Shown: one piece after another, positions 226 to 11,214 of the stretch
Layout: each line of letters starts with the position of its first letter
How positions within the stretch are numbered: the stretch's first letter is position 1
NCBI GenBank assembly: GCA_026713205.1
Contig: JAPOOY010000119.1
Coordinates: 1-11,214 of the forward strand
From: Bdellovibrionales bacterium
GTDB taxonomy: Bacteria; Bdellovibrionota; Bdellovibrionia; Bdellovibrionales; UBA1609
Length of the DNA: 11,214 nucleotides
Reading direction: 5' to 3'
Notes under the pieces: model-generated
Databases searched by the model: none
What the model was told of the DNA's origin: nothing
What the model saw: the letters and a program-made list of their open reading frames with translations, nothing else
Program-made: the position numbers and the translations under genes

Positions 226-260
226 TTTGATTCATGAAAATTCAAACCGGAAGAGTATAA
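226..260. repeat. Solo CCGG-type end of the repeat family
   Basis: Reading outward, the segment ends TTCAAACCGG-AAGAGTATAA. Its complement TTATACTCTTCCGGTTTGAA matches the CCGG-type terminus of the copies at 7154-7247 and 11035-11214. No matching internal sequence is seen to its left other than the palindrome at 1-198, so it is either a fragment or the right end of a composite 1-260 element. Confidence 0.6.
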
Positions 261-264
261 AGGG

Positions 265-340
265 TTCAAAAGTGAGTTCGGTTTTAACACAAATGCGGCG
301 GGAAGTCGCTCTGTGACAAAACGCCTGTCTGGATTTTTTA
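265..340 (-). repeat. Decayed copy of the 59-nt repeat core, reverse orientation
   Basis: Read on the minus strand, positions 332-274 align without gaps to the 59-nt core of the 2337-2563 element with 49 of 59 identical bases (counted by eye). The palindromic arms have largely decayed; about 6 bp of pairing remains between 268-273 and 333-338. The hairpin at the centre of the core can still form. The copy lies outside the element end at 226-260, so it is a remnant of a rearranged or partly deleted element. Confidence 0.7.
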
Positions 341-2336: not shown

Positions 2337-2563
2337 TTATATTGGTTCAGTTTGAGTTTTTCGGTTTTTCAGAGGAAAGAAAGATTACACCCTCCATTAA
2401 GGGAAGAAAGGGGGCAAAAGTTCAAACATGCGTTTTGCCACAGAGCGGCTTACAGCCGCATCTGTGTCAAAGCCGAACTCACTTTTGCCCCCTTTCTTCC
2501 CTTAATGGAGGGCTAACTTTATGTAAATGGAAAACCGCAAAACCCAAACCGGATTGGTGTATA
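2337..2563. repeat. Full-length palindromic repeat element (copy C)
   Basis: The outer ends are imperfect inverted repeats: TTATATTGGTTCAGTTTGAG on the left, and on the right the complement of TATACACCAATCCGGTTTGG. Inside, 2390-2421 and 2481-2512 form a perfect 32-bp inverted repeat (the left arm begins CCCTCCATTAAGGGAAG). It encloses a 59-nt core at 2422-2480. The core folds further into CACAGA-GCGGCT-TAC-AGCCGC-A-TCTGTG with flanking GTTTTG/CAAAGC pairing. The whole element fills the gap between aspS and the next gene and contains no convincing gene. Short frames reading through it are by-products of the palindrome. It could act as a bidirectional terminator or be transcribed as a structured RNA. 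Confidence 0.9.
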
Positions 2564-2639
2564 TTTTTCTACCGGAAAAAATTATACGAGTTAAGCTCAT
2601 AAACATGGTGAAAGAAAGGCCCGTTTAGCCCTGAGCTGT

Positions 2640-4115: not shown

Positions 4116-4145
4116 TCTTTCCTTAATCGCCGTAATTTCCAATTC

Positions 4146-4274
4146 TTATATCGATTTGGTTTAAGTTTTGCGGTTTCCGCTTACATAAAATTAGCCCTTT
4201 CTTTTCTTAAGGGAGAGTGTAATCCTTCTTTCATCTGAAAAATCTCAAAATTCAAGCCGGAGCAGCATAGTATA
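4146..4274. repeat. Core-less repeat element (copy D)
   Basis: Reverse-complemented, this segment aligns with the outer parts of the 2337-2563 element: TTATATCGATTTGGTTTAAG on one end and the complement of CTGCTCCGGCTTGAATTTTG on the other. The TTTCATCTGAAAAA and TTACATAAAATTAGCCC segments also align. The 59-nt core and one palindromic arm are absent. The remaining arm, about CCCTTTCTTTTCTTAAGGG, joins directly to the distal flank at a GGG. This is what a deletion across a GGG microhomology in a C-like element would leave. Confidence 0.8.
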
Positions 4275-7138: not shown

Positions 7139-9088
7139 ATGAACCAAAACAAATTATACCGATCGTGTTTGAATTTTCAGGTTTTTCAAATGAAGGGAGT
7201 TATTTTCTTTGAAGAAAAACCTGAACATTCAAACCGGAGGAGTATAACGCTATCATATCCAGTTAGAAAAAGTGTTTTTCTTTATGCTTTATTATTAAGT
7301 CTGTCTGCTTGTGTGTTACCTGTTAAAAAATTTAATATCTATAAATTAAAGAAACACATAGAAAAATCAAATCCAAAATTCGGGGGGGGGGTAAGAGATT
7401 TATCTTTTTTCCCTATAAACGGAACTCGTTTTCGTCTTTCAGAATTACAAAAAGAAGGTGTCAAAGCCGTTGTAATAATAATGAGGGAAAAGGATTGTCC
7501 CATATCTGAAAAATACGCTTCATACCTGATTCGTCTTGAAGAAGAATACAGAAAAAAAGGCATCAAATTTATTTATAATTATGTAGGTCAGATTGATAAG
7601 AGAAAAAATGCGGAAAAAGATTTAAAGAGATTTGGTTTTAGAAGTCCCTATGTGATTGATGTTAAACAAACAGTTGTCAATGAATTGGATGTGAAAACAA
7701 TCGGGGAAATTATTGTTCTCCTGCCTTCCAGACAAATTATTTATAAAGGTCCTATAGATAATCAATACCAATTAAAGTCTGCTGTTGGGCTGAAAGAAAA
7801 TTATCTTATAGATATTTTAGACTCCATAATTTCCGGCAAAAATGTTACTTCAAAAAAAATTCCGGCTTTTGGCTCAGACTGTATAATCAAGAGACCTGTA
7901 ATAAACAGAAAAGTATTCTGGAATGATGTAGCTCCCGTTATTCGGAAAAAATGCACGATCTGCCATAATCCTTCTGGTCCAGGGCCGATTGACTACATAA
8001 GTTATAAAGATGTAATTGGCCGCAGAGCTATGTTTAGGCATGTTATTGAAAAGGATCTCATGCCACCTTGGTCTGTAGATCCGAATACAGGTCCTTTGGA
8101 GAATGATCTGAGTTTAACTTTAAAGGAAAAAGCTTTAATTCTAAAATGGTTATCTGATGGCAGTCCAGGTCCCTCTAAAGGAAAAATACCACAGATTTTA
8201 TGGACAAAAGAAGAAAGCGTCAAACAGGTTCCTGATTATATTATCTCTCTTCCTGAAAAGGTATTAATCCCTGCGGAAGGAGCATTTAAGTATAAAAGAT
8301 TTATTATTCCTTCAAACTTTAAAGAGGACAAATGGATAAAGAATGTTAAATTTTTCTTAAAGCCAAAAGTTATTCATCATGTATTTTTGTATGTTCTGGA
8401 AGCATTTTATGATCCTTTAAAAAAAGGTATCCCTTCAAATATTCATAAATATTCAATAGCTGTTTTTGGTTCGGCTGGATCAATCAAAATAAATACAGAG
8501 CAGAAACGAAAAGTCGGATATAAATTGCCAAAAGGCTCTCATTTTATTTTAGAAATCCACTATGAACCTATAGGCAGGCGAATAATAGATGATTTTACCC
8601 AAATTCATATAAATTTTTTAGAAAAAAAACCTAAATACAAAATAGTAGCCTATTCCATTGCCGCATCCAACAATAGAGTAAATATCCCTGCCCGCGCTTC
8701 AAACTATAAAATAAAAGCTTCTTATAAGAATGAAAAAACAAAATTTCTTCTTTCTGTGCATCCACATATGCATTTGAGGGGAAAAGCCAATGCTATTTTT
8801 ATTACTGATCCTAAAGGAAAAAAAAGAAAAATCTTTGGTCTTGATCCTTTCCTTGTAAAATTTGAGAGAGCATATCATTTCAAAAATCCGATTAAAGTTC
8901 TCAAAGGTTCTGTTTTAGAATGCGTTAATTGGTTTGATAATAGCAAAAATAACTTCATCAACCCTAATCCGGATATAGATGTTGTTTATGGAAAATTCAA
9001 GAAAAACGAAATGTCTTTATGTCATTTCAGCTGGCTTGTTCCAATTGACTCATCAATCAAAAGTCAATGGATTAGAGTTCCTTATTAG
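7139..9088 (+). CDS. Lipoprotein fusing redoxin, cytochrome c and PHM-like copper domains
   Basis: The frame encodes 649 residues from ATG 7139. A signal peptide ends at a lipobox LSAC with Cys58, so the protein is probably membrane-anchored and faces the periplasm. Residues 81-235 form a peroxiredoxin/thioredoxin-like domain with Cys120 in KDCPISEKY. Residues 257-345 form a c-heme domain with CTICH (272-276) and a candidate axial Met308 in MPPW. Residues 385-645 resemble the type II copper, ascorbate-dependent monooxygenase (PHM/DBM) fold. His413-His414 and His474 (LEIHYEP) fit the CuH ligands; His543 and His545 (HPHMHLRG) and Met625 (NEM) fit the CuM ligands. All six expected copper ligands therefore seem present. 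Redox chemistry is likely; the substrate is unknown. The start is uncertain: a repeat element (7154-7247) covers codons 6-36, and ATG 7190 would give a shorter signal peptide. Neither ATG has a good ribosome binding site. Confidence 0.9.
   Translation: MNQNKLYRSCLNFQVFQMKGVIFFEEKPEHSNRRSITLSYPVRKSVFLYALLLSLSACVLPVKKFNIYKLKKHIEKSNPKFGGGVRDLSFFPINGTRFRLSELQKEGVKAVVIIMREKDCPISEKYASYLIRLEEEYRKKGIKFIYNYVGQIDKRKNAEKDLKRFGFRSPYVIDVKQTVVNELDVKTIGEIIVLLPSRQIIYKGPIDNQYQLKSAVGLKENYLIDILDSIISGKNVTSKKIPAFGSDCIIKRPVINRKVFWNDVAPVIRKKCTICHNPSGPGPIDYISYKDVIGRRAMFRHVIEKDLMPPWSVDPNTGPLENDLSLTLKEKALILKWLSDGSPGPSKGKIPQILWTKEESVKQVPDYIISLPEKVLIPAEGAFKYKRFIIPSNFKEDKWIKNVKFFLKPKVIHHVFLYVLEAFYDPLKKGIPSNIHKYSIAVFGSAGSIKINTEQKRKVGYKLPKGSHFILEIHYEPIGRRIIDDFTQIHINFLEKKPKYKIVAYSIAASNNRVNIPARASNYKIKASYKNEKTKFLLSVHPHMHLRGKANAIFITDPKGKKRKIFGLDPFLVKFERAYHFKNPIKVLKGSVLECVNWFDNSKNNFINPNPDIDVVYGKFKKNEMSLCHFSWLVPIDSSIKSQWIRVPY
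7154..7247. repeat. Short complete repeat element (copy F) inside a gene's 5' end
   Basis: This 94-bp element has one end of each type: TTATACCGATCGTGTTTGAA on the left, and on the right the complement of TTATACTCCTCCGGTTTGAA. The interior extends the inverted repeat with TTTTCAGGTTTTTC against GAAGAAAAACCTGAAC. It lacks the 59-nt core. It lies in frame within the first codons of the redoxin-cytochrome-copper lipoprotein, before the signal peptide's hydrophobic segment, and contains an in-frame ATG at 7190. Confidence 0.85.
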
Positions 9089-9233: not shown

Positions 9234-9272
9234 CAAATTATACCAATCGTGTTTGAATTTTCAGATTTTCTA
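9234..9272. repeat. Solo GATCGTG-type end of the repeat family (copy G)
   Basis: TTATACCAATCGTGTTTGAA (9238-9257) followed by TTTTCAG matches the left end of the element at 7154 with one difference. The preceding ACAAA is also shared. No partner end is seen nearby, so this is a truncated copy. The remaining sequence to 9390 shows no gene. Confidence 0.7.
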
Positions 9273-10960: not shown

Positions 10961-11010
10961 ATTTTAAGTTATTTGTTAAATAACCTAAAATTTCAAACAC
11001 GATCATTATA
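10961..11010. repeat. GATCGTG-type repeat end with internal hairpin (copy H)
   Basis: ATTTTAAGTTATTT-GTT-AAATAACCTAAAAT (10961-10991) forms a 14-bp stem with one mismatch. It is followed by TTCAAACACGATCATTATA, the complement of a GATCGTG-type end. The end and the hairpin match the outer 38 bases of the palindrome at 1-192 closely. No opposite end is seen, so it is a half-element. Confidence 0.8.
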
Positions 11011-11034
11011 AGCATAAAACTAGGTTATTGCATC

Positions 11035-11214
11035 TTATACTCCTCCGGTTTGAAATTTTCCGGTTCTTCATAAGAAAAAATGCTTACACCCTTTATAACA
11101 GACTATAGGGGTCAAAGCAGGTCAAAAATTCAAACATGCGTTTTGCTTTAGTGCGACTTACAGCCGCATCTGTGTCAAAGCCGAACTCATTTTTGACCCC
11201 TATAGTCTGTTATA
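11035..11214. repeat. Palindromic repeat element with 59-nt core, cut by window end (copy E)
   Basis: TTATACTCCTCCGGTTTGAA (11035-11054) is a CCGG-type end. TTACACCC (11083-11090) follows, as in copy C. Palindromic arms lie at 11094-11129 and 11189-11214: TATAACAGACTATAGGGG against CCCCTATAGTCTGTTATA, plus TCAAAAAT against ATTTTTGA, with a 10-nt insertion in the left arm. The core at 11130-11188 is identical to that of copy C at 54 of 59 bases. The arm sequences of C and E are unrelated. The distal end lies outside the window. Confidence 0.9.

Follow-up and report, generated by a model that had tools for sequence, protein, structure and literature searches.

The window, i.e. the whole stretch of 11,214 nucleotides that was analysed, is contig C85 of a 1.51 Mb draft genome in 302 contigs (G000). 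It holds two copies of a composite palindromic element, together with a degenerate third core and a core-less outer hairpin (Table 1). From the outside inwards, element 1 is built from an outer imperfect inverted repeat (TTATAC..GGTTTGAATTTTC), an internal loop whose two sides read TTACACCC and GGGCTAA, the arms, and a core with its own apical hairpin, and it extends beyond the interval that an earlier sequence-only reading had marked. That reading correctly described the perfect arms of element 1, an inverted repeat of 32 bp around 59 nt for which ~6e-13 occurrences are expected by chance within the window. The close agreement of the two cores, read in register by eye, and the presence of TTACACCC ahead of the arms in both copies were also confirmed. 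The arms of element 2 are self-complementary, again as it had described, with an insertion in the left one; the pairing comprises 23 bp (11094–11116 with 11192–11214), and the contig ends inside the right arm. The apical stem of element 2 is broken, as judged by eye. The core-less hairpin with its arm stub is probably a deletion derivative.

Table 1. Coordinates of the element copies and their parts in the window
Feature	Position	Strand	Description
Composite element 1, whole	2337..2564	+	All layers from the imperfect outer inverted repeat through the internal loop (TTACACCC / GGGCTAA) and the arms to the core; ends set by eye
Left arm, element 1	2390..2421	+	32 bp, perfect complement of the right arm
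Conserved core, element 1	2422..2480	-	GAGTTCGGM ... ACGCATGTYTGA; wobble pairs of the minus strand exceed their opposite-strand counterparts
Right arm, element 1	2481..2512	+	Perfect 32-bp pairing with the left arm
Composite element 2, arm family B	11035..11214	+	Ends at the contig end, inside the right arm
Core, element 2	11130..11188	-	54/59 identical to core 1 (read by eye)
Third, degenerate core copy	251..338 (approx.)	-	Arms not paired
Core-less outer hairpin with arm stub (CCCTT..TTAAGGG)	4141..4270	.	Probable deletion derivative

Further hairpins were seen in the window. The outer repeat (TTATACCGATCGTGTTTGAA / TTCAAACCGGAGGAGTATAA) also occurs without the core at 7154–7247, 4141–4270, 9238–9272 and 10968–11011 and has an asymmetric internal loop of its own; these core-less repeats are possibly a second hairpin family in like style. 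At positions 1–198 lies a separate hairpin, whose arms pair perfectly over 69 bp and whose loop is of another kind (two GCCATCCTGGC hairpins); this loop region has 8 matches in G000, its own site counted, and 0 in five relatives.

The core is abundant in the window genome and patchily present in its relatives; the carriers are kin of the predatory bacterium Bdellovibrio. A 17-base core piece, searched with at most two mismatches, occurs 153 times in G000 (85 and 68 by strand), compared with 1 and 0 for the reversed control. The same pattern was found 61 times in G001, 10 times in G002 (one of these matches is not an element), 35 times in G004 and 54 times in G016, a clear excess in these four genomes among the 38 relatives searched. 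G003, of the same genus, gave no match to the pattern and none to the covariance model. Among named genomes, the exact core pattern was found solely in Bdellovibrionales bacterium RHO3_bin_33. A covariance model built on 38 copies has matches in 27 of the 140 genomes of the order. With a broader model (31 copies), matches were obtained in 32 of the 368 phylum genomes. Of these carriers, 31 belong to the order, where they are spread over four families, and the single match outside the order is marginal (E 1.9e-4). As the large model searches used stricter filters and scored limited candidates per genome, the copy numbers from these searches are lower limits. Overall, copy number ranges from none to 153. 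Tandem arrays were observed at L064 and L065 of G001 (spacing of 95–129 bp) and at L142 of G004 (184 bp). No element was found in phage or plasmid records, nor in viral contigs, and no autonomous version with a gene between the core halves was recognised among the loci up to L204, for which distant 3′ halves were listed.

Two sets of copies were used in the following. Pairing of core halves dropped 34 of 195 halves that had no partner half, and 144 of 161 copies, namely those with 45 nt on both sides, were kept; these come from five genomes, including G000. For the genomes with few copies, 74 elements were chosen from 87 matches, 13 duplicate, nested, partial or weak ones having been dropped by hand.

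Read on the bottom strand, opposite to that of the sequence-only reading, the core has the form Y-RAGTTCGGM-stem-ACGCATGTYTGA-R. Recurrent variants of its 3′ half (CAAATTCGTGCTC or CAAATCGTGCTC; CAAGGGCCTAACTC) are common to several copies (L040, L058, L154 and L160 in G000; L085, L086 and L091 in G016). By eye, copies of G016 such as L099, L105 and L106 also contain short CCCGCGAAAGCGGGAATC-type repeats inside the core, between the apical hairpin and the 3′ half. The stems of the core covary: 122 double-changed cells were counted compared with 48.6 in shuffles, and the score was reached by 0 of 500 shuffles. This count was made on a structure that we drew ourselves, and a one-column slide of the 3′ partners gave 117 cells with a score of 0.32, against 0.40. 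RNAalifold returned no structure for alignment A2.

The mismatches of the arms reveal a strand preference. Within the inner 25 bp of 69 of the 74 low-copy elements, G–T wobbles on the bottom strand outnumber A–C mismatches by 51 to 9. Many of these wobbles are inherited and the counts allow for descent through the per-genome sign count alone, so the safer figure is the latter: 11 of 15 genomes lean towards G–T and 1 towards A–C. Beyond the inner 25 bp the numbers are 20 and 23 (by subtraction), i.e. without bias. Over the whole inner arm of the 144 copies from the five other genomes the direction is the same (76 vs. 33). We interpret this pattern as a sign that the bottom strand is read in folded form at the inner stem and that the outer arm is free of structural selection. 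The one-strand wobble excess, the covarying core stems and the conserved internal loop would also suit an account in which the arms are complementary solely through selection for RNA (or single-stranded DNA) structure, with stepwise G–U compensation and copies that spread as complete units. Conversely, the wobble asymmetry is absent beyond 25 bp, although the arms there are long and nearly perfect.

Arm identities were compared for copies with at least 18 bp of inner arm and 50-nt flanks (62/69, 24/28, 14/19, 7/9 and 15/19 copies); across the five genomes, the inner arm is shorter than 18 bp in 21 of the 144 copies. Over the first 30 bp of arm, the 62 copies of G000 show a mean between-copy identity of 0.67–0.90, compared with 0.36–0.54 for shuffled arms and 0.98–0.99 within a copy. 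The arms form two main families (A and B) plus some odd ones, and several core variants are found with both families. The two window copies thus do not have unrelated arms, as had been claimed, and a gapped alignment of the arms of elements 1 and 2 (32 bases vs. 27 available) gives 18 matches. Otherwise the original observation largely holds, and it is general, with near-perfect pairing of the arms within a copy. In G000, the arms of different copies are related but diverged, and a change on one side tends to come with a matching change on the other.

This joint change is apparent from the substitutions. Family A (24 copies) contains 87 paired double changes (39 distinct) vs. 11 single-side changes (10 distinct), with 2 double changes that are unpaired. 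For family B (26 copies), the numbers are 43 paired double (19 distinct) vs. 18 single-side changes (17 distinct), giving 130 paired double vs. 29 single changes for both families. Orientation relative to the outer sequence could be assigned for 59 of the 69 copies of G000, and 8 of these 59 have an inverted core. The joint changes and the core inversions support the earlier proposal that one arm serves as the template from which the other is renewed, as does the finding that 28 of 58 distinct double changes are transversions, without a possible G–U step. The latter result speaks against selection for structure with stepwise compensation, an account with which the sharing of arms between copies in the high-copy genomes is otherwise in line. 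By eye, one copy (L021, contig C118 of G000) is chimeric, its left arm belonging to family B and its right arm to family A, due to either recombination between copies or assembly error. More generally, some inversions or chimeras in draft assemblies could be assembly errors.

In the low-copy relatives, the arms differ between loci. Beyond 10 bp, between-copy arm identity is at the shuffled level in the groups g29, g56, f1low and G032, and within-copy identity in the same groups is mostly 0.85–1.0 over the next 15 bp, dropping to 0.6 in G032 (3 copies). Copies of g48 are above the shuffled level at 10–15 bp (0.72 vs. 0.49). A common inner stem is clear in two of these five low-copy groups (g29 and G032) and, by eye, also in G102 and G017. 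Some arm sequence is common to copies in G027 (L206 and L223), in G101 (L205 and L224) and in G133, and L332 of G032 has no paired arm. The outer arms reach up to ~100 bp and are mostly locus-specific. The 74 elements have a median of 33.5 matched arm pairs, with 25 elements at 40 or more and the longest at 91 and 96; in L337, the 91 pairs include zero mismatches.

A number of these arms contain the ends of neighbouring genes. The 3′ end of a neighbouring gene or tRNA falls 1–27 nt inside the palindrome in 20 of 90 cases, a set in which three distances (−188, −134 and −123) look like ORF artefacts and were kept; ORFs were called crudely (at least 100–120 aa) and some of the 20 overlapping ones may be spurious. 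All four tRNA 3′ ends lie inside the palindrome, with overlaps of 12, 5, 3 and 4 nt. Outside that set of 90, we read no tRNA overlap for the copy behind tRNA-Gln in G004 (L142). In L214 (G089), the final 18 nt of a LysRS-like gene form part of the arm, and the alignments of the encoded protein to the five best matches among solved relatives reach residue 395–399 of 400. We take this protein to be EpmA. Similarly, the arm of L230 holds the last 16 nt of a neighbouring gene, presumably mutS2, just past the residues common to a relative. As a gene or tRNA tail is unlikely to arrive with the element, the opposite arm should be the inverted copy of the tail. G031 carries the element at the tRNA-Phe site, whereas 8 of 8 other genomes have none within 400 nt (1/9 occupied). 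No before/after pair with homologous intergenic sequence was found, and the direction of copying is therefore read from a few gene and tRNA tails. The suggestion of an inverted duplication of flanking sequence gains support in these relatives, where some arms include inverted copies of gene or tRNA 3′ ends. Locus-specific arms that include such tails do not agree with selection for structure as the sole cause of complementarity, which we regard as quite unlikely.

The low-copy elements are concentrated at gene ends. Placement was counted for 62 of the 74 elements (G133 and arms below 18 bp left out), 60 of which had a gene for the distance test. Of the 45 elements flanked by genes on both sides, 26 lie between convergent neighbours, compared with 92 of the 501 gaps between genes that were counted in parts of three genomes. 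Where a gene end lies within 150 nt, the nearest is a 3′ end in 45 of 48 cases, and 31 of these 45 genes read the core strand. Overlap of more than 30 nt into the nearest gene was seen in 0 of 51 elements, vs. 3.6 expected from permutation, and the number of elements within 25 nt of a gene is not above permutation (p 0.15). Arm length and the distance of the closest gene are weakly correlated (51 elements: Spearman 0.31, p 0.03; all 60 elements: 0.25, p 0.056). This placement could be explained by selection against harm or by a landing preference. A canonical intrinsic terminator was considered and is not supported, a T-run following the arms in the sense of the gene in 5 of 58 gene–element pairs vs. 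4 of 58 controls.

Both the strand of the neighbouring genes and the strong 3′-end bias, as well as the occurrence in four families of the order, are compatible with a vertically inherited host signal at gene ends that is not mobile, such as an mRNA 3′ hairpin or a nucleoid or replication site. The patchy distribution, with no match in G003 of the same genus and a tRNA-Phe site filled in a single genome, is difficult to reconcile with such a signal, as are the wide range of copy numbers and the tandem and nested copies, and its probability appears as low as that of structure selection, if not marginally lower.

The convergent neighbours and the 3′-end bias also bear on the possibility that the core inserts at the tips of older long palindromes, e.g. 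bidirectional terminators between convergent genes, with the arms representing the old stem. This possibility is favoured by nesting, i.e. by a second core, in opposite orientation, in the apical loop of the first (L205 and L224 in G101, L214 in G089). Long palindromes without a core do exist: surveys of 400 kb each in G031 and G075 found 4 and 15, respectively (5 of the latter with arms of at least 30 bp), and shuffled sequence gave none in any survey. The stretches surveyed hold none of the core copies of G031 and G075, each of which has 2 model matches in the whole genome. On the other hand, the core-less palindromes of G075 are unlike its core elements in their arms, as 11 of 15 belong to three shared-arm families (by eye) and 12 of 15 have loops of at most 9 nt. 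In 400 kb of G017 the core is present in 5 of 6 long hairpins, leaving one without it, and insertion of the core into ready-made palindromes appears unlikely in this genome, less clearly so elsewhere. The T-runs at control level do not suggest terminators either, and old stems would leave the joint change of the arms and the inversion of the core unexplained. Overall, such an origin of the arms seems rather unlikely. In G017 (L356:4530–4767), we also observed a palindrome with 70-bp arms and without a model match whose loop still holds CCGACATGCGTTGG, perhaps a diverged core.

Our preferred reading, which we consider moderately probable, is that of a dispersed hairpin with an inherited core and with arms that are made and repaired by template switching with the local flank. 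Copying between arms and flank is in itself well supported. The inherited part would be the core, which folds strand-specifically into a hairpin with an apical stem and an asymmetric internal loop that is conserved; in several genomes, some 10–18 bp of inner stem may be inherited with it. In low-copy genomes, the element sits mostly directly behind gene 3′ ends, and its long arms would for the most part not be inherited cargo. After or during insertion, the replication machinery would fold back at the hairpin and copy one flank onto the other, making each arm an inverted copy of local sequence. The same fold-back copying may repair mismatches on both sides at once and sometimes invert the core. 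In a few lineages, including G000, one core-plus-arms form would have been amplified to tens to ~150 copies, the arms of which then drifted together. Since the presence of the element is patchy, its copy number variable and its copies nested, we infer that it is mobile, presumably with the help of an enzyme that acts in trans and recognises the single strand in its folded form. The agent of copying would be template switching, and selection would limit the spread into genes.

Tentatively, this may amount to a mobile element consisting of hardly more than a loop, which generates the inverted repeats around it from the host DNA wherever it lands, copying of the adjacent flank being primed by the folded core. 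Each insertion would then come to lie within a long host-derived palindrome that sometimes includes the tail of a neighbouring gene. Palindromic repeat families are usually recognised by their shared arms; as the low-copy genomes share mainly the loop, elements of this kind are easily missed. They would provide a record, natural and replicated many times, of how palindromes grow and are repaired in bacteria, in which gene and tRNA tails mark the original arm, and they point to a factor that reads one folded strand.

Several components of this picture have precedents: template switching is known to repair arms and to invert loops, and both REP elements and nested palindromes of organelles have been described. 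Homogenised arms and inverted cores are taken as signs of template switching because inversion of the loop or spacer and homogenisation of the arms are its published marks (PMC8604942; PMC8794818). Both arm homogenisation and spacer inversion were found here, and single cases may include assembly error. The likeness to quasipalindrome correction extends to multi-base compensatory changes and stem extension; the relevant sections of these reports describe hairpins and RNA genes, whereas a dispersed repeat family with a conserved core is the feature of the present case (PMC8794818; PMC8604942). Long perfect inverted repeats occur in mitochondrial genes of Nematomorpha, and the authors think that they are actively kept identical, possibly by template switching; the account of these repeats differs from ours in that it mentions no shared loop or repeat family (PMC6649704). 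Dispersed intergenic hairpins are further represented by organellar palindromic repeats, as outlined for Volvox, where they are often nested (PMC2670323), and for the RHE of sponges (PMC2800124). According to these outlines, the Volvox repeats differ in being mutually alike (>50% identity) with loops of 3–5 nt, and two of the sponge repeat types in having conserved stems. In the literature searched, mostly open-access papers, no dispersed repeat family was found that combines a conserved core with arms derived from the host, and to this extent the earlier remark that no standard repeat family has such a layout holds. Rfam gave 0 matches in the window, and at five other loci the gathering score was reached by a tRNA only.

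A strand-specific hairpin with conserved unpaired bases, location at gene 3′ ends and high copy number in some genomes are properties that a diverged member of a known single-strand system (REP/RAYT, an IS200/IS605 MITE or an integron attC) would have. The attC sites of integrons carry R boxes (GTTRRRY / RYYYAAC) and are served by the IntI integrase. REP and REPIN sequences are, like the present elements, palindromic and dispersed, and the elements described here are likewise extragenic, as judged from the nearest 3′ ends with crudely called ORFs. TnpAREP is described as binding the folded single strand of one orientation and needing mismatches in E. coli REPs (PMC8266576), and REP families with alternative complementary stem residues are on record, in which most GTAG stems measure 6–9 bp and have a GTAG foot (PMC3733652, for the families treated there). 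In contrast, the arms here extend to ~100 bp, the conserved part is the middle, and neither an excess of the foot nor, in 8 of 9 genomes, a Y1 gene was detected: GTAG or CGTC stands at the arm base in 12 of 69 elements vs. 15 of 69 control positions 50 nt away. The Y1 transposase (PF01797) was found in 1 of 9 genomes, several of them 80–94% complete, as one copy at a contig edge of G000, and PF01797 is absent from G001, G002, G004 and G016. Membership of such a system is thus very improbable.

Retron msr-msd or msDNA-like repeats were rejected as well. RVT_1 is present in 5 of 9 genomes and not in the carrier G001, and none of the five matches has a core within ~1.5 kb. By our reading, the reverse transcriptase genes of these five genomes differ from one another. 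Neither Y1 transposases nor a shared reverse transcriptase fits as the mobilising enzyme. At two of the loci inspected (L194 on contig C142 of G000 and L195 on contig C29 of G002), a reverse transcriptase lies beside an Avd-like small protein, an arrangement that we take to be a diversity-generating retroelement.
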